Assembly: GCF_002787055.1 (NCBI RefSeq)
Contig: NZ_CP024808.1
Coordinates: 1,328,328 to 1,392,327 of the forward strand
Reading direction: 5' to 3'
Length of the DNA: 64,000 bases
Origin: Candidatus Nitrosotenuis aquarius
GTDB lineage: Archaea > Thermoproteota > Nitrososphaeria > Nitrososphaerales > Nitrosopumilaceae
Below, piece after piece: positions 17,784 to 47,612 of this stretch. The translations under genes and the position numbers were made by a program. Position 1 is the stretch's first letter. Every line of letters starts with the position of its first letter. The notes beneath the pieces are model-generated. The model saw only the letters and a program-made list of their open reading frames with translations. It was not told the DNA's origin and ran no database searches.

Positions 17784-17883
17784 GCCTAGTAGAATTGGAT
17801 TAAAAAAATCATATAAGAGAGTGTTTGGACTTTTTGAACAAATACTACGATAATTACAAAAAATTTCTAAAACTTTTGATGTT

Positions 17884-20800
17884 ATGGGTGCCTCAGACAG
17901 TATCGTACAAAATCAGATTGTTCTTGTAAATGGCCTACTCAAACGTCTGCTAGAGAACAACGGGCTAAAAAAAGAATTAGGAGCAAATTTTGAGCTATCC
18001 TCTGATGTAAAGTCAAAAATATCCAGCATGGTAAAGGTGCAGGAAAAACTCCAAGAACGGCTAACAAAACAAGAAAAACAATCCTCAGACAAAGATCTTG
18101 ACATTCTCTTGGGAAATTTTTACTATTATGACAAGCAGTACTCAAAGGCAATCGCATCATATGACAGACTGATACGTGCAGATCCGCATGACGCAAGAGC
18201 GCTTGTAAACAAGGGCATAACGCAATCTAGGCTTGGCAACCACAAAGAAGCAATTACGCTGTATGATCGAGTCTTGGAAATTGATCCCGAATATTTTGAC
18301 GCGTTGCACTGCAAGGGTGACTCGCTTGCCGTACTATCAAAGCATAACGAAGCGTTATCGTGCTATGAGCAGACGCTTGCAATAGATCCAAACTATTTTG
18401 ATGGATTGTACAAAAAAGGACTTGCACTAGCAAACCTGCAAAACCACGACGAAGCAATATCGTATTTTGATAGGGCATTAGAAATAGAGCCGGCCAACAT
18501 TGCTCTGCTTGTTAATCGAGGAATCTCTGCATCACAGGCTGGCAACCAAACAGAGGCAATCTCGTTTTATGACAGAGCACTGGAAATAGATCCGAATTAT
18601 TTTGATGCAATACACAACAAGGGTCTTGCACTAATCAAAACAAAACAATACGAATCTGCATTGTCTTGCCTTGATAAAACACTGGAAGTTGATCCATATC
18701 ATGCAGAAGTATTATTCGCAAAAGGCGTCTGCCTGGCAAACCTTGGCAGGCACCAATTGGCAATATCTTATTTTGAAAAGTCACTGGAATTCAACCCGCA
18801 AGAGCCCTCGACTCTGTATACTCTTGGATGCTCTCTGCTCCAAATTGACAAAAAATCTGAGGCCCTAGAATACTTTGATAGGGCAATAGCTGTTGACTCT
18901 GGCTTTGAAGATGCCTTGCTTCAAAAGGCAATCGTACTGTCTTCACTGGATGATTACAATTCATCAATAGATAGCTGCAACAAGATTCTCCAGAAAAATC
19001 CGGCAAACGTTGGTGCGCTTTATTGCAAAGCAATCTCACTATCTTATCTGGGAGTACATGATCAGGCAATCTCATCATATGATAAAATCCTTGAAATCAT
19101 ACCGGGACACTTTGATGCGATCTTTAACAAGGCGCAAATTTTGCGCTTGCTTGGAGAACATGAAGAAGCACTGGAATGTTTTGATGTTGCAATAAAGATC
19201 AACCCAAAACACCATGACAGCATTTTTGGAAAAGCGTCTTGCCTTTTACAAGTTGGAATTCACTCGGATTCACTAGAATTCTTTGACAAGGCACTTGCAC
19301 TAAATCCAAAACACATAGACAGCATCGTAGGAAAGGCATCGTGTCTTTTGCATTTGGGCAAATACACGGAAGCACTGTCTTATTTTGACAAAGCCCTTGC
19401 CATCCATCCAAACAATGCAAATGTGCTTTTTAGCAAGGGCATTGCGTTATCACATCTATCCAATGACACGCAAGCCTTGGCCTACTTTGAAAAAGCACTA
19501 ACAATAGATCCCAACAACGACATAATTCTAGCAAACATAGGAAAATCAATGTGCAATCTGGGCAAAGCAACAGAATCGTTGGTGTACTTTGACAAGGCAT
19601 TAACGCTAAACCCATCAAACATATCTGCCCTGCATTACAAGGGCCTAGCACTACTTGCACTGAGCAGACATTCTGAGGCAATGGAGTACTTTGATCAGAT
19701 ACTGGAATTTGCCCCAAATCACTTTGAGTCTATTTGCCGAAAAGGCGATGCATTACTACATCTGTCAAACCCCACAGAAGCATTGTCCTATTTTGATAGG
19801 GCACTTGTCATCAATCCAGGCCACTTTGACTCTATATTCAAAAAGGCAGTAACCCTTGGCAAGCTGAGCCGATACACAGAAGCATTAGCATATTTTGATG
19901 CTGCACTCTCTATTAACACGCAACACTCTGAGGTGTACTACCACAAAGGGCAGACACTTGTCAAGCTGGGCCAAAAAGAAGACGCAATATCCTGCATGGA
20001 CAAAGCACTAGAGCTCAACCCGCAATACTATGACGCACTATACCACAAGGGCTCACTATTATCACAATCAAACCCCACAGAAGCATTGTCCTATTTTGAC
20101 CGGGCACTTGCAATCAACCCAAACAGCTCAGATGCACTATACCACAAGGGCTCACTATTATCACAATCAAACCCCACAGAAGCATTGTCCTATTTTGACA
20201 AAGCCCTTACTATTAATCCAGGCCACTTTGACTCTATATTCAAAAAGGCAGTAACCCTTGGCAAGCTGAGCCGATACACAGAAGCATTAGCATATTTTGA
20301 TGCTGCACTCTCTATTAACACGCAACACTCTGAGGTGTACTACCACAAAGGGCAGACACTTGTCAAGCTGGGCCAAAAAGAAGACGCAATATCCTGCATG
20401 GACAAAGCACTAGAGCTCAACCCGCAATACTATGACGCACTATACCACAAGGGCTCACTATTATCACAATCAAACCCCACAGAAGCATTGTCCTATTTTG
20501 ACAAAGCCCTTACTATTAATCCAGGCCACTTTGACTCTATATTCAAAAAGGCAACTACTCTGGATAGACTTTCTAAATATGCTGATGCAATATCTTTGTA
20601 CAACAAGGCACTAACAATAGATCCCAACAACGACATAATTCTAGCAAACATAGGAAAATCAATGTGCAATCTGGGCAAAGCAACAGAATCGTTGGTGTAC
20701 TTTGACAAGGCATTATCAATTAATCCTAAGAACACAACTACATTACACAACAAGGGAGTAGCGCTTGCAACAATAGGAAAACACAATGATGCACTGGAAT

Positions 20801-24276: not shown

Positions 24277-25080
24277 TTACATCAATAATTCTATTGATTT
24301 TGCCTTCTTCCAAAGATGCGTACAAAGGCTGTACATGTTGTTAATCATCTCCGAAGAATTGGTGTACATTATGGAGTCGTTGTCGTCATTAAGATCCATG
24401 GACTCTTTGATAGAGCCAGACATTATCAGCTGATTTCCTTCTTCTACTATCATTCGGGACTTTGATGGAAGCTTGCCGATTCTTGTCTCAGACGCGTTTA
24501 ATCTGTTGACTAGTGGAAGCAGATTTTCGCTATTTGTCCAAGTCAGGACTCGAACTTCGCCTTTGTTTTGCTTGCACATTTTGATCTTTTCTGGAATGGC
24601 AGTATGATACATTCTCAGAATGTCTTCAACTGTAGTGACAATGTAGATTGTCTTTGTGGATTCTTGGATGAGCTTGCCGACTCTTGCATAAATGTTGGCC
24701 CGACCCTGAATAATAGAAAATGAAGATATCTCTGTTGTGGCCTCTGGTCGTGTGATTTGTTGTAATTGCTCAACAATGTTGCGTGAGAGCTTTTGCATTG
24801 TGACAATTTCATCTTCTCTTCTCTGCATTATGGTAGTTAGCCCTTCTTTTGGATCAACTGCCTTGCAAATTGTTGGATTGGAAAATGTTGTTGTGATCAA
24901 TCCAAGGTTTCGTAATTTGTTAAGTGAGCGATATGCCTTTCCTCTGTCGATGTCCAGCTTGGCAGACATTGTTCCTACTGTGACGGAGCCCATCTGGAGC
25001 AGGCCTAGATACACCATGGCATCAGTTTTTTCCAAACCAAAGTATGACAGTGACGTTGATAATTCTTCATGAATGCTCAT
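24277..25080 (-). CDS. TrmB-family transcriptional regulator
   Basis: A 267-residue regulator. The N-terminal winged helix-turn-helix (about 10-75: LEKTDAMVYLGLLQMGSVTVGTMSAKLDIDRGKAYRSLNKLRNLGLI) is the TrmB type. It is followed by a coiled-coil linker (IMQRREDEIVTMQKLSRNIVEQL) and a C-terminal PLD-like sensing domain (about 125-265). In Euryarchaeota the family senses sugars; the ligand here is unknown. It is divergent from the first archaellin gene across a 267-bp gap, so it is a candidate regulator of the motility cluster, though this is positional inference only. Confidence 0.9.
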   Translation of the reverse strand: MSIHEELSTSLSYFGLEKTDAMVYLGLLQMGSVTVGTMSAKLDIDRGKAYRSLNKLRNLGLITTTFSNPTICKAVDPKEGLTTIMQRREDEIVTMQKLSRNIVEQLQQITRPEATTEISSFSIIQGRANIYARVGKLIQESTKTIYIVTTVEDILRMYHTAIPEKIKMCKQNKGEVRVLTWTNSENLLPLVNRLNASETRIGKLPSKSRMIVEEGNQLIMSGSIKESMDLNDDNDSIMYTNSSEMINNMYSLCTHLWKKAKSIELLM

Positions 25081-25108
25081 TGGAACTCACCTGTAAAATT
25101 GAAATGGG

Positions 25109-25168
25109 AATTTTGATTTTGCTTTCTGACACTATGATTATTTTTTGTGAACATGTACAATCAAAATT
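25109..25168. repeat. Inverted repeat upstream of the TrmB-type gene
   Basis: Arms AATTTTGATT (25109-25118) and AATCAAAATT (25159-25168) with a 40-nt spacer, 29-88 nt before the regulator start. It could be an autoregulatory site; the region is AT-rich, so chance is possible. Confidence 0.3.
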
Positions 25169-25288
25169 ATAATAATGATTTTAGTTGTTGTCTGTTTCAT
25201 TCAAACAAACATCTAGTTGTAATTTTTTTGGGCAAAAATTTGCAAAGTCCGCAACTTCTGATATTTAATAAGAGAATCATACTCATTC

Positions 25289-25347
25289 AATGTTTGCACA
25301 TCCTGATCACACTCTAGGATATACCGTAATGCAATAATACAAAACCA
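25289..25347 (+). promoter_or_regulatory. Archaellin promoter element, copy 1
   Basis: A 59-nt block from AATGTTTG to the start codon, conserved before archaellins 1, 3 and 4. It contains CACACT (25308-25313), 5 nt, then ATATA (25319-25323). The ATG is 29 nt after the first base of the TATA, so the mRNA is leaderless. Confidence 0.75.
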
Positions 25348-26073
25348 ATGAACCTTATTAGAAAAGGACACAGACAATCCCACAGAGGAGTCATAGGCGT
25401 CGAGTCTGCAATAGTTATGATTGCATTTGTAATCGTGGCTGCAGCCTTAGCTTTTGTCGTTCTCAACATGGGTTTCTCTACAACACAAAAGGCAAAGACC
25501 ACAATATCTGCAGGTCTAGGTGAAGCGTCAAGCAGCCTAGAAGTCTCAGGCAAAGTCACAGGAGTAGGATGTACATCTAGTGCAAGTGATACCACATGCG
25601 CTACAACACCAAAACTGAATGTTACTTCAATTCCAATTAAGGTAGCATCTGGTGGTGATTCCATTAACTTGGCATCTGCTACTGCATCGATCAAATACTT
25701 GAGCAACACAGTACAATACGATAACATCTATGCTGGACCAATCTCCAGTGCAGAATACTCTAGTACTACTGCAGCATTCACACAAGCTACAGCTGAAACT
25801 GGATCTGCATTTGATGCATTCAACAGTGCACATCCAGTAACTGGTGCAGTGCCGTCATCAACAAAAGCAATCGTATACTGGTCAGTACAAAGCAATACAA
25901 ATGCTATTCTTGATCAAGGCGAACATGCAGTAGTTGCAGTAGCATACTCATCTGCGGACAGACCATCAGCGCTTGATAAAGTCCGAGTTGAAATAGTAGT
26001 GCCAACCGGTGCTCCATTGACTGTTGAACGTCAAGTACCAAACATCACAACCGCTGTTGTAGATCTAGGATAA
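25348..26073 (+). CDS. Archaellin 1 (archaellum filament subunit)
   Basis: A 241-residue preprotein. The class III signal peptide MNLIRKGHRQSHRG is cleaved by the archaeal prepilin peptidase before VIGVESAIV, with Gly at mature position 3. The hydrophobic filament-core helix continues to about residue 48 (VVAAALAFVVLNMG region) and is followed by a beta-rich outer domain. Compared with the other copies it has a unique insert with two cysteines (GCTSSASDTTCATT) and its own outer domain. The C-terminus ITTAVVDLG is shared with archaellin 3. A stem-loop and T tract follow the stop. Confidence 0.95.
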   Translation: MNLIRKGHRQSHRGVIGVESAIVMIAFVIVAAALAFVVLNMGFSTTQKAKTTISAGLGEASSSLEVSGKVTGVGCTSSASDTTCATTPKLNVTSIPIKVASGGDSINLASATASIKYLSNTVQYDNIYAGPISSAEYSSTTAAFTQATAETGSAFDAFNSAHPVTGAVPSSTKAIVYWSVQSNTNAILDQGEHAVVAVAYSSADRPSALDKVRVEIVVPTGAPLTVERQVPNITTAVVDLG

Positions 26074-26107: not shown

Positions 26108-26177
26108 TAATTCACACAATGTTTGTCTGATCTAAACAACAAAAATATCATTAAATTATTAATATCAAACAAAAAAC

Positions 26178-26885
26178 GTGCAGCTAGTAAGACATCGACG
26201 AGGAATATCTGGAATAGAGGCGTCGATTTTGGCAATAACCATAGTAATCGTGGCTGCAGCCTTAGCTTTTGTCGTTCTCAACATGGGTTTCTCTACAACA
26301 CAAAAGGCAAAGACCACAATATCTGCAGGTCTAGGCGAAGCATCAAGTACTATACAAGTAGATGGAACTATCTTTGGTTCAGGCCATGTCTCAGCAGCAA
26401 AGCTCAACTATACTGCAGTCCCAATCAAGATTGCATCTGGAGGAGACTCTGTAAATCTTGATGATGCAACAGCGGCAGTCAAGTATCTGAGCAATTCCAT
26501 CTCATACGATAACATCTATGCAGGAACACTCACAACAACCACACAAGACAACGATGATGGAACCGCAGATGGCCAGTGGCTATCACTAGAGGAAGCATCA
26601 GAATCTGCCAAAGATGAAGGATACATAAGCGATGATCCATTTGAAGCAGACGGAAGCAGCTTCCCAGCAACCACCAAGGCATACGTCTATTGGACTGTCA
26701 ATGACAACAATAACGAAATCTTGGATCAGGGCGAGCATGCAGTACTAGCTATTGCATATGCAAGCGCAGACAGACCAGCAGCACTAGACAAAGTCAGAGC
26801 TGAAATTCTGATCCCAACTGGTGCAGCATTGACCATTGAACGCCAAGTGCCTTTAATAACAAATGAAGTAATAAACATGAACTAG
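26178..26885 (+). CDS. Archaellin 2 (gene-conversion mosaic)
   Basis: A 235-residue preprotein starting at GTG. Its signal peptide and first mature residues (MQLVRHRRG, then ISGIEASILAITIVIV) differ from the other three archaellins, and its upstream region lacks the conserved 59-nt element. From 26244 to 26851 it is identical to archaellin 4 except for 26 nt. Its C-terminus (LITNEVINMN) is again its own. An old minor archaellin or hook-like subunit overwritten in the middle is the simplest reading. A TATA-like ATTAAATTATTA sits about 20-30 nt before the GTG. Confidence 0.9.
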   Translation: MQLVRHRRGISGIEASILAITIVIVAAALAFVVLNMGFSTTQKAKTTISAGLGEASSTIQVDGTIFGSGHVSAAKLNYTAVPIKIASGGDSVNLDDATAAVKYLSNSISYDNIYAGTLTTTTQDNDDGTADGQWLSLEEASESAKDEGYISDDPFEADGSSFPATTKAYVYWTVNDNNNEILDQGEHAVLAIAYASADRPAALDKVRAEILIPTGAALTIERQVPLITNEVINMN

Positions 26886-26909: not shown

Positions 26910-26968
26910 AATGTTTGATCATCCTGATCACACTCTAGGATATACCGTAATGCAATAATACAAAACCA
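26910..26968 (+). promoter_or_regulatory. Archaellin promoter element, copy 3
   Basis: Nearly identical to copy 1: CACACT at 26929-26934, ATATA at 26940-26944, ATG at 26969. The 59-nt distance from AATGTTTG to the start codon is preserved exactly. Confidence 0.75.
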
Positions 26969-27655
26969 ATGAAACTTGTTCAAAAAGGACACAGACAATC
27001 CCATCGAGGAGTCATAGGCGTCGAGTCTGCAATAGTTATGATTGCATTTGTAATCGTGGCTGCAGCCTTAGCTTTTGTCGTTCTCAACATGGGTTTCTCT
27101 ACAACACAGCGAGCAAAAACAGCAATCGTAGCAAGTCTGGACGAATCTAGCAGTGCAGTAGAAATTGCAGGTAAAGTAACAGGTGCAGGCGACATTTCAC
27201 CCATAGGCAAACTAAACGTCACGGCAGTGCCACTCAAGATTGCATCTGGAGGATCTTCAGTAAACTTGGGTAACACAACGATGGCGGTGAAATATTTCAG
27301 TCAATCTGTTGAATATGACAATATTATGACTGGTGTTTTGTCATCTGGTACATATGAAAACCTGACAACTGCATCAACTGCGGCAGTCAATGCAGGATAC
27401 ATCAATGTGAATCCAATCACTAGCAACACTGCAGCAAGTGCAACAAAAGCATTCATCTACTTTGGCGTAAATAGAAACAACAACAGCATCTTGGATCAAG
27501 GTGAGCATGCCATACTGGCTATAGTGCATAAGGGTAGTGAAAGACCAACTGCTCTTGATAACATCAAAGTCGAAGTAATCGTGCCAACTGGTGCACCGCT
27601 TACTATTGAGAGACATGTACCAAACATCACAACTGCGGTTGTAGATCTTGGATAG
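26969..27655 (+). CDS. Archaellin 3
   Basis: A 228-residue preprotein with signal peptide MKLVQKGHRQSHRG before VIGVESAIV and a core helix identical in DNA to copies 1 and 4. After that it diverges from the shared QKAKTTISAGLGEAS sequence (QRAKTAIVASLDESS) and has its own outer domain. The segment LDQGEHAILAIVHKGSERPTALDNIKVEVIVPTGAPLTIERHVP corresponds to the conserved terminal block of the family. Followed by a T-rich stretch (27676-27690) likely to end transcription. Confidence 0.95.
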   Translation: MKLVQKGHRQSHRGVIGVESAIVMIAFVIVAAALAFVVLNMGFSTTQRAKTAIVASLDESSSAVEIAGKVTGAGDISPIGKLNVTAVPLKIASGGSSVNLGNTTMAVKYFSQSVEYDNIMTGVLSSGTYENLTTASTAAVNAGYINVNPITSNTAASATKAFIYFGVNRNNNSILDQGEHAILAIVHKGSERPTALDNIKVEVIVPTGAPLTIERHVPNITTAVVDLG

Positions 27656-28516: not shown

Positions 28517-28575
28517 AATGTTTGATCATCCTGATCACACTCTAGGATATACTCTTACTATATGATACAAAACCA
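28517..28575 (+). promoter_or_regulatory. Archaellin promoter element, copy 4
   Basis: CACACT at 28536-28541, ATATA at 28547-28551, ATG at 28576. The first 35 nt match copy 3. The 15 nt after the TATA differ but the total length of 59 nt is kept. Confidence 0.75.
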
Positions 28576-29298
28576 ATGAACCTTATTAGAAAAGGACACA
28601 GACAATCCCATCGAGGAGTCATAGGCGTCGAGTCTGCAATAGTTATGATTGCATTTGTAATCGTGGCTGCAGCCTTAGCTTTTGTCGTTCTCAACATGGG
28701 TTTCTCTACAACACAAAAGGCAAAGACCACAATATCTGCAGGTCTAGGCGAAGCATCAAGCACCCTAGAAGTTGCCGGTAAAGTGATTGGTTCAGGCCAT
28801 GTCTCAGCAGCAAAGCTCAACTATACTGCAGTCCCAATCAAGATTGCATCTGGAGGAGACTCTGTAAATCTTGATGATGCAACAGCGGCAGTCAAGTATC
28901 TGAGCAATTCCATCTCATACGATAACATCTATGCAGGAACACTCACAACAACCACACAAGACAACGATGATGGAACCGCAGATGGCCAGTGGCTATCACT
29001 AGAGGAAGCATCAGAATCTGCCAAAGATGAAGGATACATAAGCGATGATCCATTTGAAGCAGACGGAAGCAGCTTCCCAGCAACCACCAAGGCATACGTC
29101 TATTGGACTGTCAATGACAACAATAACGAAATCTTGGATCAGGGCGAGCATGCAGTACTAGCTATTGCATATGCAAGCGCAGACAGACCAGCAGCACTAG
29201 ACAAAGTCAGAGCTGAAATTCTGATCCCAACTGGTGCAGCATTGACCATTGAACGCCAAGTGCCGTCAATTACTACAGAAGTTGTAGATCTCGGATAG
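28576..29298 (+). CDS. Archaellin 4
   Basis: A 240-residue preprotein. The N-terminus is identical to archaellin 1 (MNLIRKGHRQSHRG, then VIGVESAIV) apart from silent differences, and its outer domain is the same as archaellin 2. The outer domain has an acidic stretch (TQDNDDGTADGQW) typical of surface-exposed archaellin regions. It is followed after 16 nt by the ArlX/ArlCDE-like gene with a Shine-Dalgarno (AGGAGTG), so archaellin 4 probably heads the transcript of the motor accessory genes. Confidence 0.95.
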   Translation: MNLIRKGHRQSHRGVIGVESAIVMIAFVIVAAALAFVVLNMGFSTTQKAKTTISAGLGEASSTLEVAGKVIGSGHVSAAKLNYTAVPIKIASGGDSVNLDDATAAVKYLSNSISYDNIYAGTLTTTTQDNDDGTADGQWLSLEEASESAKDEGYISDDPFEADGSSFPATTKAYVYWTVNDNNNEILDQGEHAVLAIAYASADRPAALDKVRAEILIPTGAALTIERQVPSITTEVVDLG

Positions 29299-31660: not shown

Positions 31661-31708
31661 TTGTTGAACCTAGTAGTTATCTATTTTATAAAATGGAGTG
31701 AAAAATGA
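31661..31708 (+). CDS. Possible 15-codon leader ORF before arlH
   Basis: A TATA-like TTTATATC (31633-31640) places the transcript start near 31661, where a TTG opens a 15-codon frame (LLNLVVIYFIKWSEK). Its TGA overlaps the arlH start (ATGA). This is the same arrangement as before cheB and cheW2, but with TTG and without the CACACT motif, so support is weaker. Confidence 0.3.
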   Translation: MLNLVVIYFIKWSEK

Positions 31709-35571: not shown

Positions 35572-35591
35572 TTCTGTACGGGCAAACCAAA

Positions 35592-35609
35592 CACACAGCA
35601 TTCTATAAT
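35592..35609 (+). promoter_or_regulatory. Motility promoter element of cheW1
   Basis: CACACA (35592-35597), 5 nt, then CTATAAT (35603-35609). The ATG at 35631 is 39 nt after the motif start, the same geometry as the archaellin promoters, giving a leaderless mRNA. Confidence 0.6.
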
Positions 35610-35630
35610 GCTGATTGCAAAAATCATATC

Positions 35631-36284
35631 ATGAGTACTCAGGTAGCGTCTGCAGACACCATACAGGTAGTCTCATTTATGCTACAAAACCAAGCAGGCA
35701 AAAAAGAAGACTATGCCATCCCAATAGAACAGGTGCGAGAAATCAGATCAGTTGAGAAAATAACTCGAGTGCCAAAATCAGAACCTCACGTAAAAGGGAT
35801 CATGAATCTGCGCGGCCTGATTATACCAGTAATTGATGTCAAAGAAAAACTGGGCCTGGGCTCGCAAGGGGCAGCAAACACAAAGCAAAGAATCCTTGTC
35901 ACAAACATTGCGGATTCACTTACCGGACTGCTCGTTGACGAAGTAGACCAAGTAATGAGAATCCAGACCAAGGACATTGATTCTGCGCCACAGACGGCGT
36001 CAGAATCGCATCATTATATTCATGGAATAGCAAAACTGGACCAAAGACTGGTTATACTAATTGATGCAGAAATACTGCTTTTGGGCAAAAAAGAAGAACA
36101 AGAACAAAAAGCCGAAACTCAACAAGTATCACAACTGGAACCTACAAAGCCACAAACCGAAATGGCCCAGGTGGAAAACTCTGGCCAATCAATAGAAGAC
36201 ATTCCACCAGAACTTGCCGCGGTATTTGCAGAAGATGAGCAGGGAATTGCCCCAACACAAATAATCCGAGAAGAAACATCCTAG
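35631..36284 (+). CDS. cheW: Chemotaxis coupling protein CheW (first copy)
   Basis: A 217-residue protein. Residues 1-150 form the CheW beta-barrel with YAIPIEQVREIRSVEKITRVP, VKGIMNLRGLIIPVIDVKEKLGL and LLVDEVDQVMRI, which link receptors to CheA. The C-terminal 65 residues are an acidic, Gln-rich tail (KKEEQEQKAETQQ) absent from the second CheW. The core is closely related to the copy at 41509. It has its own leaderless promoter. Confidence 0.95.
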   Translation: MSTQVASADTIQVVSFMLQNQAGKKEDYAIPIEQVREIRSVEKITRVPKSEPHVKGIMNLRGLIIPVIDVKEKLGLGSQGAANTKQRILVTNIADSLTGLLVDEVDQVMRIQTKDIDSAPQTASESHHYIHGIAKLDQRLVILIDAEILLLGKKEEQEQKAETQQVSQLEPTKPQTEMAQVENSGQSIEDIPPELAAVFAEDEQGIAPTQIIREETS

Positions 36285-36361: not shown

Positions 36362-36619
36362 ATGTCATACAAAATACCAAGACTGGAGGAAATCTACGAC
36401 AAAATAGATGCAGAGTGCAGCGCCCCAATGAGCCACGAGGACGGCTATCGGTGGGGCCTTGACTATCTAAAAGATACACAAAAACAGCTGGAGAGGCTTG
36501 AAAAAAAGGCACTAGAAGATAACAACCCAATATTGTATAGGTATGTGCGACTCTCAATGCAGCGCTCATCAGAGGCCGCAGCGGAACTAGAGGACAAAAT
36601 TAAGCACCTACGAAAGTAG
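36362..36619 (+). CDS. 85-residue helical protein in the chemotaxis cluster, unknown function
   Basis: A short soluble protein, predominantly helical and charged: LEEIYDKIDAECSAPMSHEDGYRWGLDYLKD, then a coiled-coil-like DTQKQLERLEKKALED and SEAAAELEDKIKHLRK. One Cys. It belongs to no chemotaxis family I recognise. It lies between cheW1 and the cheB-A-C-D-R operon on the same strand with its own TATA box, so co-function with the pathway is plausible. It could be an adaptor or phosphatase-like helper; that is inference. Confidence 0.75.
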   Translation: MSYKIPRLEEIYDKIDAECSAPMSHEDGYRWGLDYLKDTQKQLERLEKKALEDNNPILYRYVRLSMQRSSEAAAELEDKIKHLRK

Positions 36620-36658
36620 TACAGAACAAATCCATGTCTTTTGTCTGATCACCGCAAA

Positions 36659-36674
36659 CACACTTGATGATATA
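36659..36674 (+). promoter_or_regulatory. Motility promoter element of the cheB operon
   Basis: CACACT (36659-36664), 5 nt, ATATA (36670-36674). The next ATG at the expected distance (40 nt from the motif start) is at 36699, the mini-ORF, not cheB. Upstream TTTGTCTGATC (36640-36650) also occurs before archaellin 2 and, with one change, before cheW2. Confidence 0.65.
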
Positions 36675-36698
36675 TCGACAACTGGATTTACGTCATTA

Positions 36699-36761
36699 AT
36701 GCAATCTGGATTGATAAGTCCTAGCTTTATGAGAATTAATGGGATGGGTGAGCATTGCTAG
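36699..36761 (+). CDS. 20-codon leader ORF overlapping cheB
   Basis: ATG at the predicted transcript start, followed by QSGLISPSFMRINGMGEHC and TAG at 36759-36761. The frame covers the cheB Shine-Dalgarno (GGTGA, 36747-36751) and the cheB TTG start (36755). Ribosomes loading on the leaderless ATG would terminate 4 nt past the cheB start codon, a geometry suited to coupling or attenuation. Confidence 0.5.
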   Translation: MQSGLISPSFMRINGMGEHC

Positions 36762-37816
36762 CTGCATCGGTTTCCCAGATTAGTGTTCTAATAATTAATG
36801 ACTCTGCATACATGAGCACCCTGTTAAAGGACCTAATATCTAGTGAGCAAATTCAGGTTTGCGATATAGCTCGGGATGGAGTCGAAGGGCTGCGCAAAAT
36901 TGCACTGCGCAAGCCAGATGTCATACTGCTTGATCTGGAAATGCCAAGAATGGATGGCGTTACATTCATTGAAGAAATGGTAAAAAAGGGAACACTGATC
37001 CCGACAATTCTGGTTAGCAGCTTCAGCCAAGACGGAGCAAAAATTGTCCTAGATGCACTAGAAAACGGCGCAATTGACTTTGTCCCAATTTCCCAAGTAA
37101 ATCCAGATGGAACAAGCCAACTAAAGGAAATGCTGATTTCAAAAATCACTGGCGCTGCAAAATGCGATCCATACAAACTAGTCCTTGAAAAAATTGGTAG
37201 TCTTAGGCCAAAAAGAAAGGCAATAGCGTCCTCTCAGGCAGCATCTGTAGTTGTTACAATTGCGTCATCTACTGGTGGACCTGGAATTGTGCAAAAAATT
37301 CTCTCAGGGCTTCCGGCAGACCTTCGTGCAGGGGTTCTAGTTGTGCAGCACATGCCAAAAGGATTTACGCAAAAATTCGCAGAAAGGCTCGATGAGGCAT
37401 GTGAAATAAAAGTAAAAGAAGCGCAGGAAGGAGACCTCATAACGCAAGGAGTTGCGCTTGTTGCTCCAGGAGACTTGCACATGGAAGTCGACCCTCATCT
37501 CAAAATCAAGCTGATTAATGGTCCAAAGCGATTTGGTGTGCGGCCTGCGGCAAACGTAACGATGGTTTCAGCATCGGAGTTTTTTGGCGCAAACACCGTA
37601 GGAGTCACACTTACCGGCATGGGCCATGATGGCGCCTTTGGCATGAAGACAATCAAGCGAAGGGGCGGCAAGACCTTTGCGCAGGACGAAAACTCGTCAG
37701 TCGTGTTTGGCATGGCAAAGGCAGCAGTGGAGCTAAACGCAGTAGACCAGCTTTTGCCGCCTGAAAAAATTGCCCAGGCAGTAGTCGAGGAGGTAAACAA
37801 GCTTGTCACAAAATAG
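36755..37816 (+). CDS. cheB: Chemotaxis methylesterase CheB with atypical receiver
   Basis: A 353-residue response regulator-methylesterase that demethylates/deamidates receptor glutamates. Receiver: phosphorylation site Asp60 (LLDLEMPRMDG) is present, but the acidic pair reads Asn15-Asp16 (VLIINDSA) and the conserved lysine is replaced by Ile112 (DFVPIS). The C-terminal esterase domain keeps its catalytic Ser (ASSTGGP), His (VQHMPKGF) and Asp (GMGHDGA). TTG start with GGTGA just upstream; the next downstream candidate starts would cut into the receiver. Overlaps cheA by 14 nt. Confidence 0.95.
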   Translation: MLAASVSQISVLIINDSAYMSTLLKDLISSEQIQVCDIARDGVEGLRKIALRKPDVILLDLEMPRMDGVTFIEEMVKKGTLIPTILVSSFSQDGAKIVLDALENGAIDFVPISQVNPDGTSQLKEMLISKITGAAKCDPYKLVLEKIGSLRPKRKAIASSQAASVVVTIASSTGGPGIVQKILSGLPADLRAGVLVVQHMPKGFTQKFAERLDEACEIKVKEAQEGDLITQGVALVAPGDLHMEVDPHLKIKLINGPKRFGVRPAANVTMVSASEFFGANTVGVTLTGMGHDGAFGMKTIKRRGGKTFAQDENSSVVFGMAKAAVELNAVDQLLPPEKIAQAVVEEVNKLVTK

Positions 37817-41384: not shown

Positions 41385-41413
41385 ATAATTCTTTTTTGTC
41401 TGTTCGCCATAAA

Positions 41414-41430
41414 CACACTCTAAATTATTA
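41414..41430 (+). promoter_or_regulatory. Motility promoter element of cheW2
   Basis: CACACT (41414-41419), 5 nt, then TTATTA (41425-41430). The motif start is 39 nt before ATG 41453, the mini-ORF. TTTGTCTGTTC upstream (41395-41405) has the same spacing to CACACT as the cheB promoter. Confidence 0.6.
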
Positions 41431-41452: not shown

Positions 41453-41509
41453 ATGAATTTACAAACAAATGAGTCTCTAACAATAGTTAAGCTCGGAGGA
41501 GCATTCTGA
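41453..41509 (+). CDS. 18-codon leader ORF overlapping cheW2
   Basis: ATG at the predicted transcript start encodes MNLQTNESLTIVKLGGAF and ends in TGA whose A is the first base of the cheW2 ATG (TGATG). The strong Shine-Dalgarno GGAGGAG for cheW2 lies within this frame. It mirrors the 20-codon ORF before cheB. Confidence 0.5.
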   Translation: MNLQTNESLTIVKLGGAF

Positions 41510-42006
41510 TGTCCACCCAAGTGCTTGCCGCTGATTCTTTTCAGGCAGTAACCTTTTGCCTAATTGATGGGCAAAAAAAGGAAGATTATGCAATACCAAT
41601 AGAACAAGTGCGCGAAATTCGTGCAGTTGAATCCATAACAAACATTCCAAAGACAAAGTCCTATGTCAAAGGAATAATGAATCTGCGCGGACTAATCATA
41701 CCAATAATTGATGTCAAAGAAAGACTCGGCCTCGCATCCGGTAAGCAGGTAAATACAGCAAAACAAAGAATTCTTGTAATTGACGTAAACGGTTCCCAGA
41801 CAGGACTCCTAGTCGACGAAGTAGACCAAGTAATGAGAATCCAGACAAAAGACTTGGATTCTGCACCACAAACAGTCCTGGAATCGCACAACTACATTAA
41901 AGGAATTGCCAAGATTGACCAAAAACTTGTGGTTCTACTTGACGTTGTAAGATTACTACAGGACTCTACTGGCGATATTGTGTCTGCAATGGAGGCAGGA
42001 CAATGA
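41509..42006 (+). CDS. cheW: Chemotaxis coupling protein CheW (second copy)
   Basis: A 165-residue CheW beta-barrel. Blocks YAIPIEQVREIRAVESITNIP, VKGIMNLRGLIIPIIDVKERLGL and LLVDEVDQVMRIQTKDLDSAPQTV are nearly the same as in the first copy, without the acidic tail. Heads a cheW-cheY-cheC operon and overlaps cheY by 4 nt (ATGA). The GGAGG ribosome site supports the ATG. Confidence 0.96.
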   Translation: MSTQVLAADSFQAVTFCLIDGQKKEDYAIPIEQVREIRAVESITNIPKTKSYVKGIMNLRGLIIPIIDVKERLGLASGKQVNTAKQRILVIDVNGSQTGLLVDEVDQVMRIQTKDLDSAPQTVLESHNYIKGIAKIDQKLVVLLDVVRLLQDSTGDIVSAMEAGQ

Positions 42007-42398: not shown

Positions 42399-43001
42399 AT
42401 GCAAACCCTTGCCGTAACGGAAAACGATCTGAGCCGCCTAACTGAGATTTTTTCAAAATGCGTCTTGACTAGTACGGTTCCGGCACTGGGAACACTTTTG
42501 GGCGAATCAATCCAGCATCACATTGGCAAAACTGAATTTCTGGATATCACACAACTGGATCAGCTAACCCCGGCATTTTCTGATGGCACCAACATGTCTG
42601 CTGTATACCTCAAGCAGACAGGCGATGTAGATGTCGGAGTATTGTATTACATGCCAGAAAAGGACGGCAGGAAATTTGCGGCAAAACTCTTGGGCAAGAC
42701 AAGGTTGGACTCTTTTACCAAGCTTTCAAAATCCTCGCTATCAGAGACGGGAAACATTCTGTCGGGTTCGTTTTTCAATGCTTTGGCAAACGACCAAGGC
42801 TGCAAGACAAGTGCAGACATTCCTGGATTTGCAGTGGATTCGTTCATGTCGATATTGGAGATTCCTGCAATGGAGATCGGAATTCAAACCCAATCGCTAG
42901 TTGCATGCTCTGCCGAATTCTTTTCATCAAGCGGACTGAAGCTAAGGATGTTGATGATTCTGGATCCAAACAACGCAAAAAAGCTACTGGAAAAACACTG
43001 A
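42399..43001 (+). CDS. cheC: CheC-type phosphatase (second copy)
   Basis: A 200-residue CheC paralogue starting MQTLAVTENDLSRLTEIFSK. Only the second ExxN motif is intact (SETGNILSGSFFNALAN); in the first helix the Asn position is Ser. It follows cheY by 15 nt, so it probably acts on CheY phosphate. Its 3' end overlaps the convergent surface-protein gene by 18 nt. Confidence 0.9.
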   Translation: MQTLAVTENDLSRLTEIFSKCVLTSTVPALGTLLGESIQHHIGKTEFLDITQLDQLTPAFSDGTNMSAVYLKQTGDVDVGVLYYMPEKDGRKFAAKLLGKTRLDSFTKLSKSSLSETGNILSGSFFNALANDQGCKTSADIPGFAVDSFMSILEIPAMEIGIQTQSLVACSAEFFSSSGLKLRMLMILDPNNAKKLLEKH

Positions 43002-46550: not shown

Positions 46551-47612
46551 ATGATTAATGTGAAAAAACCAATCATTGCAGCAATTGGAGTAGGAGTTGC
46601 AATTGTAATTGGTGTCATTTTAGTTGGTACACAGCAAAGTATGCTAACACCTCAATCGGATCTTTCAAGGCAAGACACCATGCTGTCGGAGCCTCAAGCT
46701 TCTAAAATCAAAATAATTGCATCATTTTATCCGCTGTACGAGTTTTCAAAAAATATTGTTGGCGACAGGGCGGAAATTTCTACATTTACTCCAATTGGAA
46801 TTGAACCGCATGACTGGGAACCGAGCACTGGTGATCTTGTTGCGCTAAAAGAATCTGACATCTTTGTGTATAATGGAGGTGGAATGGAACCGTTTGTGGA
46901 TAAGCTAATTGACTCAGGAGAATATTCTAATGTTCTTTTCGTAGAGACTGTTCATGGAATTGATCTTATCGAGACAGAAAGTCACGATGAGGACCATGCC
47001 GAAGAAGAGCATACTGAAGGATCTACGGAGCACATAGATGATGAACATGCAAATGACGAGAACGAAAGCCATGCCCATGAATTTCCATATGATCCGCATG
47101 TATGGCTTGATCCAATTCTGGCAAAAGAGCAAGTCATGATAATAAAGGACGCACTAATCAAAGTGGATGCAGACAATGCACAACATTATGAGGATAATGC
47201 AAATGCCTACTCTGCAAAACTGGATGAGCTTGACTCTAAAATAAAAACAGAGCTATCAAGCTGCAACAAGGACACCATAGTTCCATTCCACAATGCGTTT
47301 TCATATTTTGGAAACAGGTACGGAATAAAAATCCACGCGTTATCTGGCCTTGCACCAGAATCTGAGGCTACTGCAAGTGACCTAAAAGAGCTAATCGACT
47401 TTGTAAAAGAAAACCAAATCAAAATAATCTTTGCAGAAGAATTGGTTGATCCAAAACTTGCCAAAGTTCTTGCGGATGAAGCCGGAGCTCAGGTTTTGGT
47501 TTTGAGCCCGCTTGAGGGAATAACTGCAGAAGAGCAGGCAAACGGCACGTCATATATTGAGAAAATGGAAGAAAATCTAAAGAACATCAAAGTGGCCCTT
47601 GAATGTCAATGA
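46551..47612 (+). CDS. znuA: Metal ABC transporter substrate-binding protein (ZnuA-like)
   Basis: A 353-residue cluster A-I binding protein with an N-terminal membrane anchor (8-26). Metal-site histidines are seen in IEPHDWEPS (His87), DPHVWLDP (His183) and PFHNAFSYF. Between the first two lies a His/Asp/Glu-rich loop (about 145-176, HDEDHAEEEHTEGSTEH...) typical of zinc-capturing ZnuA. Delivers zinc, or possibly manganese, to ZnuB. First gene of znuA-C-B; its end overlaps znuC. Confidence 0.93.
   Translation: MINVKKPIIAAIGVGVAIVIGVILVGTQQSMLTPQSDLSRQDTMLSEPQASKIKIIASFYPLYEFSKNIVGDRAEISTFTPIGIEPHDWEPSTGDLVALKESDIFVYNGGGMEPFVDKLIDSGEYSNVLFVETVHGIDLIETESHDEDHAEEEHTEGSTEHIDDEHANDENESHAHEFPYDPHVWLDPILAKEQVMIIKDALIKVDADNAQHYEDNANAYSAKLDELDSKIKTELSSCNKDTIVPFHNAFSYFGNRYGIKIHALSGLAPESEATASDLKELIDFVKENQIKIIFAEELVDPKLAKVLADEAGAQVLVLSPLEGITAEEQANGTSYIEKMEENLKNIKVALECQ

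Follow-up and report, generated by a model that had tools for sequence, protein, structure and literature searches.

Conserved short ORFs at predicted leaderless starts run into chemotaxis and regulator genes behind a shared motility promoter element in Nitrosopumilaceae

The chemotaxis gene cheB of Candidatus Nitrosotenuis aquarius is preceded by a short ORF that runs over the start codon of cheB itself, which raises the question of whether the overlap is a coincidence or a part of the way in which cheB is translated. We analysed the locus within a stretch of 64,000 nucleotides, called the window here, from a genome of 1.70 Mb that is assembled in one contig and is 99.97% complete. In the window, cheB (36755..37816, + strand) heads the series cheB-cheA-cheC-cheD-cheR, and it is the sole copy in the genome (Pfam CheB_methylest, E=5e-60). 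Among named organisms, the nearest relatives of this CheB belong to Candidatus Nitrosotenuis assemblies. The TTG at 36755 is the only standard start available to cheB, because an in-frame TGA lies just upstream at 36749-36751. The mini-ORF proved to be as the sequence-only reading had described it: it occupies 36699..36761 of the + strand, opens 56 nt before the TTG, spans the Shine-Dalgarno-like GGTGA of cheB (36747..36751) and ends 4 nt beyond the cheB TTG. Its codons (ATG CAA TCT GGA TTG ATA AGT CCT AGC TTT ATG AGA ATT AAT GGG ATG GGT GAG CAT TGC TAG) amount to 20 sense codons, MQSGLISPSFMRINGMGEHC, and a stop. Taken alone, the cheB leader is unremarkable: 35% of shuffles give a stop within −12 to +8 nt of the cheB start. 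Judged from the sequences, the departure from chance is the conservation of the arrangement over 67 leaders in four gene types, not the single cheB overlap.

The ATG at 36699 had been said to stand where a shared promoter geometry predicts a leaderless start, and this geometry was recovered independently of the genome in question. A 21-bp near-palindrome with the core GTnTGnTy-n6-AAACAnAC (46 representative leaders of all types) sits before motility genes in this genome and its relatives, with a start codon 49-54 nt downstream. The window was scanned with a motif model (PWM) that was built without this genome and has a maximum possible score of 43.1. The top sites with an ATG at the right distance were three operator-like elements, namely GTCTGTTCGCCATAAACACAC before cheW2 (41398..41418, +; 40.4), GTCTGATCACCGCAAACACAC before cheB (36643..36663, +; 34.6) and GTTTGTTTGAATGAAACAGAC before a TrmB-family gene, referred to as trmB (25190..25210, −; 28.4). 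The ATG offset at these sites is 51-52 (+52 for the cheB mini-ORF), and 20 shuffles yielded no score higher than 15.1, far below all three. The cheB element is conserved in 25 family genomes, where it is followed by an AT-rich box and then by an ATG at offset 51-53; it reads TGATCACnnCAAACAnACTTGATGATATATC in Nitrosotenuis and TGTTCGnCnCAAACAyACATCAnATTATTAT in Nitrosopumilus-like genomes. The box in the window is the TATA-like ATATATC at 36670..36676 (+), 23-29 nt upstream of the mini-ORF ATG. Because a TATA PWM trained by EM settled on no box, we relied on the A/T content at each position. In 46 leaders of this kind, positions −25/−26 from the ATG are 100% A/T and the AT box lies at −24 to −28, a position that matches the genome's own A/T peak at −25 to −31 before 107 gene starts. 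A start codon that follows the element and lies about 25 nt past an AT box has the geometry expected of leaderless transcripts, and the position of the box predicts that the short ORF starts at the transcript 5′ end. A weak element match (12.8) was also seen at 17821-17884; it has an ATG (17879) at offset 52, which shortly precedes a 2122-aa ORF at 17884, and is probably due to chance.

The motility island contains archaellin genes at 25348, 26178, 26969, 28576 and 30599 and a KaiC-like ATPase at 31705. The same geometry fits the archaellins and cheW1, at weaker sites (scores of 11-21), and there the start codon found at offset 51-53 belongs to the gene itself. When an MCP gene is included, the element offset of these genes is 51-54, and none of them has an intervening short ORF. 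The matches before the archaellins and cheW1 in the window are all on the + strand: 25296..25348, counted from the conserved G (offset 52; 14.0); 26125..26178, leading to a GTG start (offset 53; 11.3); 26917..26969 and 28524..28576 (both offset 52; 20.6); and 35580..35631, which ends at the cheW1 ATG at 35631 (offset 51; 18.9). The two weakest archaellin matches (14.0 and 11.3) are within the shuffle range, and there the case rests on start-codon position, not on score. In five related genomes (G151, G030, G092, G074 and G195), near-identical element-box sites occur about 0.8 kb apart beside the TrmB gene and are probably tandem archaellin promoters. The 85-codon ORF that occupies 36362-36619, in the interval from cheW1 to cheB, gave no match in Pfam.

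The device is not peculiar to cheB, as short ORFs of the same kind, which we call relays, also stand before cheW2, cheY and the TrmB regulator gene. Gene cheW2 (41509..42006, +; Pfam CheW, E=4e-36) is followed by cheY at 42003 (response regulator, E=2e-27) and by a CheC-like gene at 42399 with a CheC match just under the cut-off. Its relay (41453..41509, +; 18 codons, MNLQTNESLTIVKLGGAF, then stop) contains the cheW2 Shine-Dalgarno sequence GGAGGAG (41495..41501, +) and shares a TGATG overlap with the cheW2 start. All 12 cheW leaders of Nitrosotenuis have the relay stop at −10 to +4 nt from the cheW start, and in 11 of them the relay overlaps that start. The cheY-first operon of Nitrosopumilus-like genomes carries a relay in 12 of 12 cases, mostly ending one base before the start; the element matches are weak in some of these cheY leaders. 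The TrmB-family HTH regulator (24277..25080, −; TrmB, E=4e-15; HTH_5 below the cut-off) is divergent from the archaellin array, and its relay (25077..25154, −; MFTKNNHSVRKQNQNSHFNFTGEFQ, then stop) overlaps the regulator start by ATGA. This arrangement is common to 18 archaellum-linked copies and is absent from TrmB paralogues elsewhere. Its linkage and the element before its own gene make the TrmB-family protein a candidate binder of the element. With the element standing before its own relay, the gene may also be a candidate autoregulated regulator of the archaellum and chemotaxis genes.

Each of the 67 leaders (25 of cheB, 12 of cheW, 12 of cheY and 18 of trmB) has an ATG at an operator offset of 49-53, and in 60 of them the relay stop falls within −12 to +8 nt of the gene start. 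The relays at cheB, cheW2-cheY, cheY-first and trmB are 7-34 codons long, and the stop overlaps or abuts the downstream gene. Thirty of 33 representatives were coupled in this way, against 7.45 expected from dinucleotide shuffles. For trmB, 13 of 14 representatives were coupled, where base shuffles lead one to expect 2.1. The P values (2e-19 and 1e-11) are nominal and overstate the case because the lineages are related. A frame control that is independent of the shuffles gave 0 and 2 coupled cases when frames +1 and +2 of the same 33 representatives were read.

The peptides themselves are another matter. Relay pN/pS is 0.68, whereas the downstream genes give 0.08 over their first 60 codons, and on this ground peptide conservation was rejected. 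No conserved regulatory codons and no shared motif were found among the relay peptides. The cheB relay differs in both length and sequence in nearly every clade, with its stop usually at the cheB start. In the cheW relays of Nitrosotenuis, indel lengths are divisible by three and the overlap is preserved. Because the peptides are hardly conserved, it is the act of translation, not the peptide, that appears to be selected. The sequence-only reading had proposed a leaderless leader peptide coupled to a Shine-Dalgarno gene and had named conservation in relatives as a check. Across the Nitrosopumilaceae the ATG and the stop/start junction are kept, and the peptide and even the ORF length vary. The conserved ATG position and the junction thus argue for a leaderless ORF coupled to a Shine-Dalgarno gene, but "leader peptide" is a misleading term for an ORF whose amino-acid sequence is under hardly any constraint.

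The relay junctions consist of overlaps of 1, 4, 7 or 8 nt or of gaps of +1 to +12 nt; at cheB they take the form NTGTTAG, TAATG, TGATG or ATGA, or the relay ends a few bases before the start. Of 46 relayed genes, 36 have an SD-like motif in front of them, against 12% in shuffles, and 10 lack one by our simple test; only 1 of 46 relay ATGs follows such a motif. The exceptions to the −12 to +8 range are six cheB leaders and one trmB leader (trmB_G182, with an overlap of 11 nt). In a Nitrosotenuis subclade (G070, G076, G082 and G116), a gap of 40-43 nt separates the end of the first cheB relay from the gene, and by eye this gap is bridged by a second ATG ORF of 13-14 codons that runs from TGATG to TAATG. 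The cheB relay of G050 ends 30 nt upstream, and that of G106 ends 44 nt upstream, with a possible CTG start after GGAGG. Leaders L006, L007, L009 and L010 show two chained mini-ORFs (TGATG and then TAATG) leading to cheB, as if a second relay had bridged a lost overlap.

We considered, and rejected, the idea that the device is used genome-wide. In 464 kb of the genome, with gene starts that are crude, ATGs lying 40-100 nt before a gene were coupled in 10 of 34 cases with an AT box and in 28 of 174 (16%) without one, and three of the 10 are regulon sites. Ordinary upstream ATGs show no bias like that of the relays in this control, so the device is not detectably general. One case outside the regulon is the gene at 46551-47612 (+), where an ATG 41 nt upstream, after an AT-rich box, opens a short ORF that overlaps the start by ATGA in a leader with no motility element; it is possibly a chance occurrence. 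By eye, cheB outgroups outside the family (Nitrososphaera-like, Nitrosocaldus-like and Bathyarchaeota) have no such leader. In genera g9 and g13, in which cheB lies directly behind cheY or cheW, no element was found before cheB; a g13 genome (G012) has the element at trmB.

The best explanation of these observations, and one that we consider probable, is leaderless ribosome entry at the relay followed by termination and reinitiation. A common operator-TATA module would drive the motility regulon, with transcripts beginning at or within 1-2 nt of a start codon. In the cheB, cheW2-cheY and cheY-first operons and at the TrmB-family gene, the 5′-terminal AUG would open a relay, which the ribosome would enter by leaderless initiation. 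It would then translate 7-34 codons of arbitrary sequence, terminate where the first real gene has its Shine-Dalgarno sequence and start codon, and reinitiate at that start. Translation of the structural gene would consequently depend on leaderless entry upstream. In this scheme four points are inferred: where transcription starts, that relays are translated, that ribosomes reinitiate, and that the TrmB-family protein binds the element.

One could envision instead that the ATG is conserved as an initiator or promoter element, the short ORFs being untranslated coincidences. The fixed distance of the ATG from element and box would fit, as would the conservation of the sequence around it (AATTTAATGCA in Nitrosotenuis). 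This leaves unexplained, however, why it is the frame opened by this ATG that ends at the gene start (30 of 33) and not the two others (0 and 2), and why the indels are in frame. Moreover, the start codon that archaellin genes have at this offset is TTG or GTG, so the promoter does not require ATG, and we regard this explanation as quite improbable. The classical role of small leader ORFs before operons is attenuation, and the relay might accordingly be a peptide-sensing attenuator or encode a functional small protein. Against this stand the lack of codons or residues shared among relays and the pN/pS of 0.68. The cheB and cheW2 leaders, the two that were folded, gave z-scores of −0.01, no better than shuffles; they showed neither alternative hairpins nor a terminator, and there was no match in Rfam. 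Either role of the peptide is extremely unlikely, and the folding result also provides no evidence that a relay is needed to open a structure.

Two further alternatives accept that the relay is translated. Relay translation might keep ribosomes near RNA polymerase in the leader and so prevent premature transcription termination. The predicted cover of the leader by translation, unbroken between +1 and the gene, is indeed conserved, down to the chained second ORF in one subclade, but protection alone would need no stop/start overlap within a few nucleotides, and we think this very unlikely. Alternatively, the relay might lower output, through occlusion of the start or inefficient reinitiation, so that less signalling and regulator protein is made relative to archaellins from the same promoter type. 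The distribution in the window, with relays at the regulator, cheB and cheW2 operons and none at four archaellins or an MCP gene, is in line with this, and so is the irrelevance of the peptide sequence, as for occupancy-based effects. On the other hand, cheW1 has no relay, reinitiation is at its best, not blocked, at junctions of this type (PMC10666635), and the sign of the effect is not readable from sequence; on balance, reduced output seems unlikely. Returning to leaderless entry with reinitiation, one could extend it to a regulon-wide archaeal ribosome-entry switch. A single type of operator and promoter would produce leaderless mRNAs, and the relay would turn leaderless entry into coupled, SD-assisted expression for the regulator and chemotaxis genes only. 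It would thereby set their ratio to the archaellins or make that ratio depend on the condition of the initiation machinery. We offer this extension tentatively and think it rather doubtful.

By analogy, the nearest known kind is the coupled leaderless small ORF of mycobacteria, which is joined to the next gene by RTGA and whose linkage is conserved more than its peptide (Shell et al. 2015, PMC4633059). The relays resemble it in having a small ORF at the 5′ end (here a predicted one) that lacks an SD motif, a stop that overlaps the next start above chance, and a linkage conserved where the peptide is not. The mycobacterial ORFs differ in being bacterial, a genome-wide class and mainly of the RTGA form. 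The archaeal relays belong to one operator-defined regulon with four gene types, use overlaps of several lengths as well as short gaps, and show no enrichment over the 464 kb of the genome that were scanned. The junctions also recall overlapping gene pairs of Haloferax, in which reinitiation is best with short overlaps and gone by about 20 nt; among prokaryotes at large, overlaps of 4, 1 and 8 nt are the most frequent (PMC10666635). Relay junctions fall mostly within that distance (60 of 67 leaders at −12 to +8), and the overlap classes, distance limits and importance of the distal SD are the same (Huber 2019, PMC6728339; 2023, PMC10666635). The Haloferax pairs are full genes, however, whereas the upstream partner here is an expendable ORF at a predicted transcript start. 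In Methanosarcina mazei, small ORFs in 5′UTRs were detected by Ribo-seq; they are likewise archaeal and upstream of genes, but the parts of that report that we consulted describe no leaderless coupled architecture or shared regulon (PMC11456600). The winged-helix regulators EarA and CsmR act at archaellum promoters, and csmR adjoins archaellin genes. CsmR is Lrp/AsnC-like with the motif TATCA(N4)TGATA, unlike the TrmB-family gene and the element described here (PMC13286277). The open-licence full texts that we searched contained no earlier description of such archaeal relays and no regulator of archaellum or chemotaxis genes for this ammonia-oxidising group. It is the archaeal setting, the single element-defined regulon and the four gene types that make the relays new relative to the mycobacterial systems.

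If the proposal is correct, leaderless mini-ORFs would have a conserved archaeal use as ribosome relays, spread over four gene types and one promoter element, and a candidate motility regulon of ammonia-oxidising archaea would be tied to a specific translation route. The relays make it testable whether a ribosome that enters without a 5′UTR reinitiates at a Shine-Dalgarno start. They also supply candidates for a regulator of archaellum and chemotaxis genes in this group of ammonia-oxidising archaea, the TrmB-family protein, and for its binding site.
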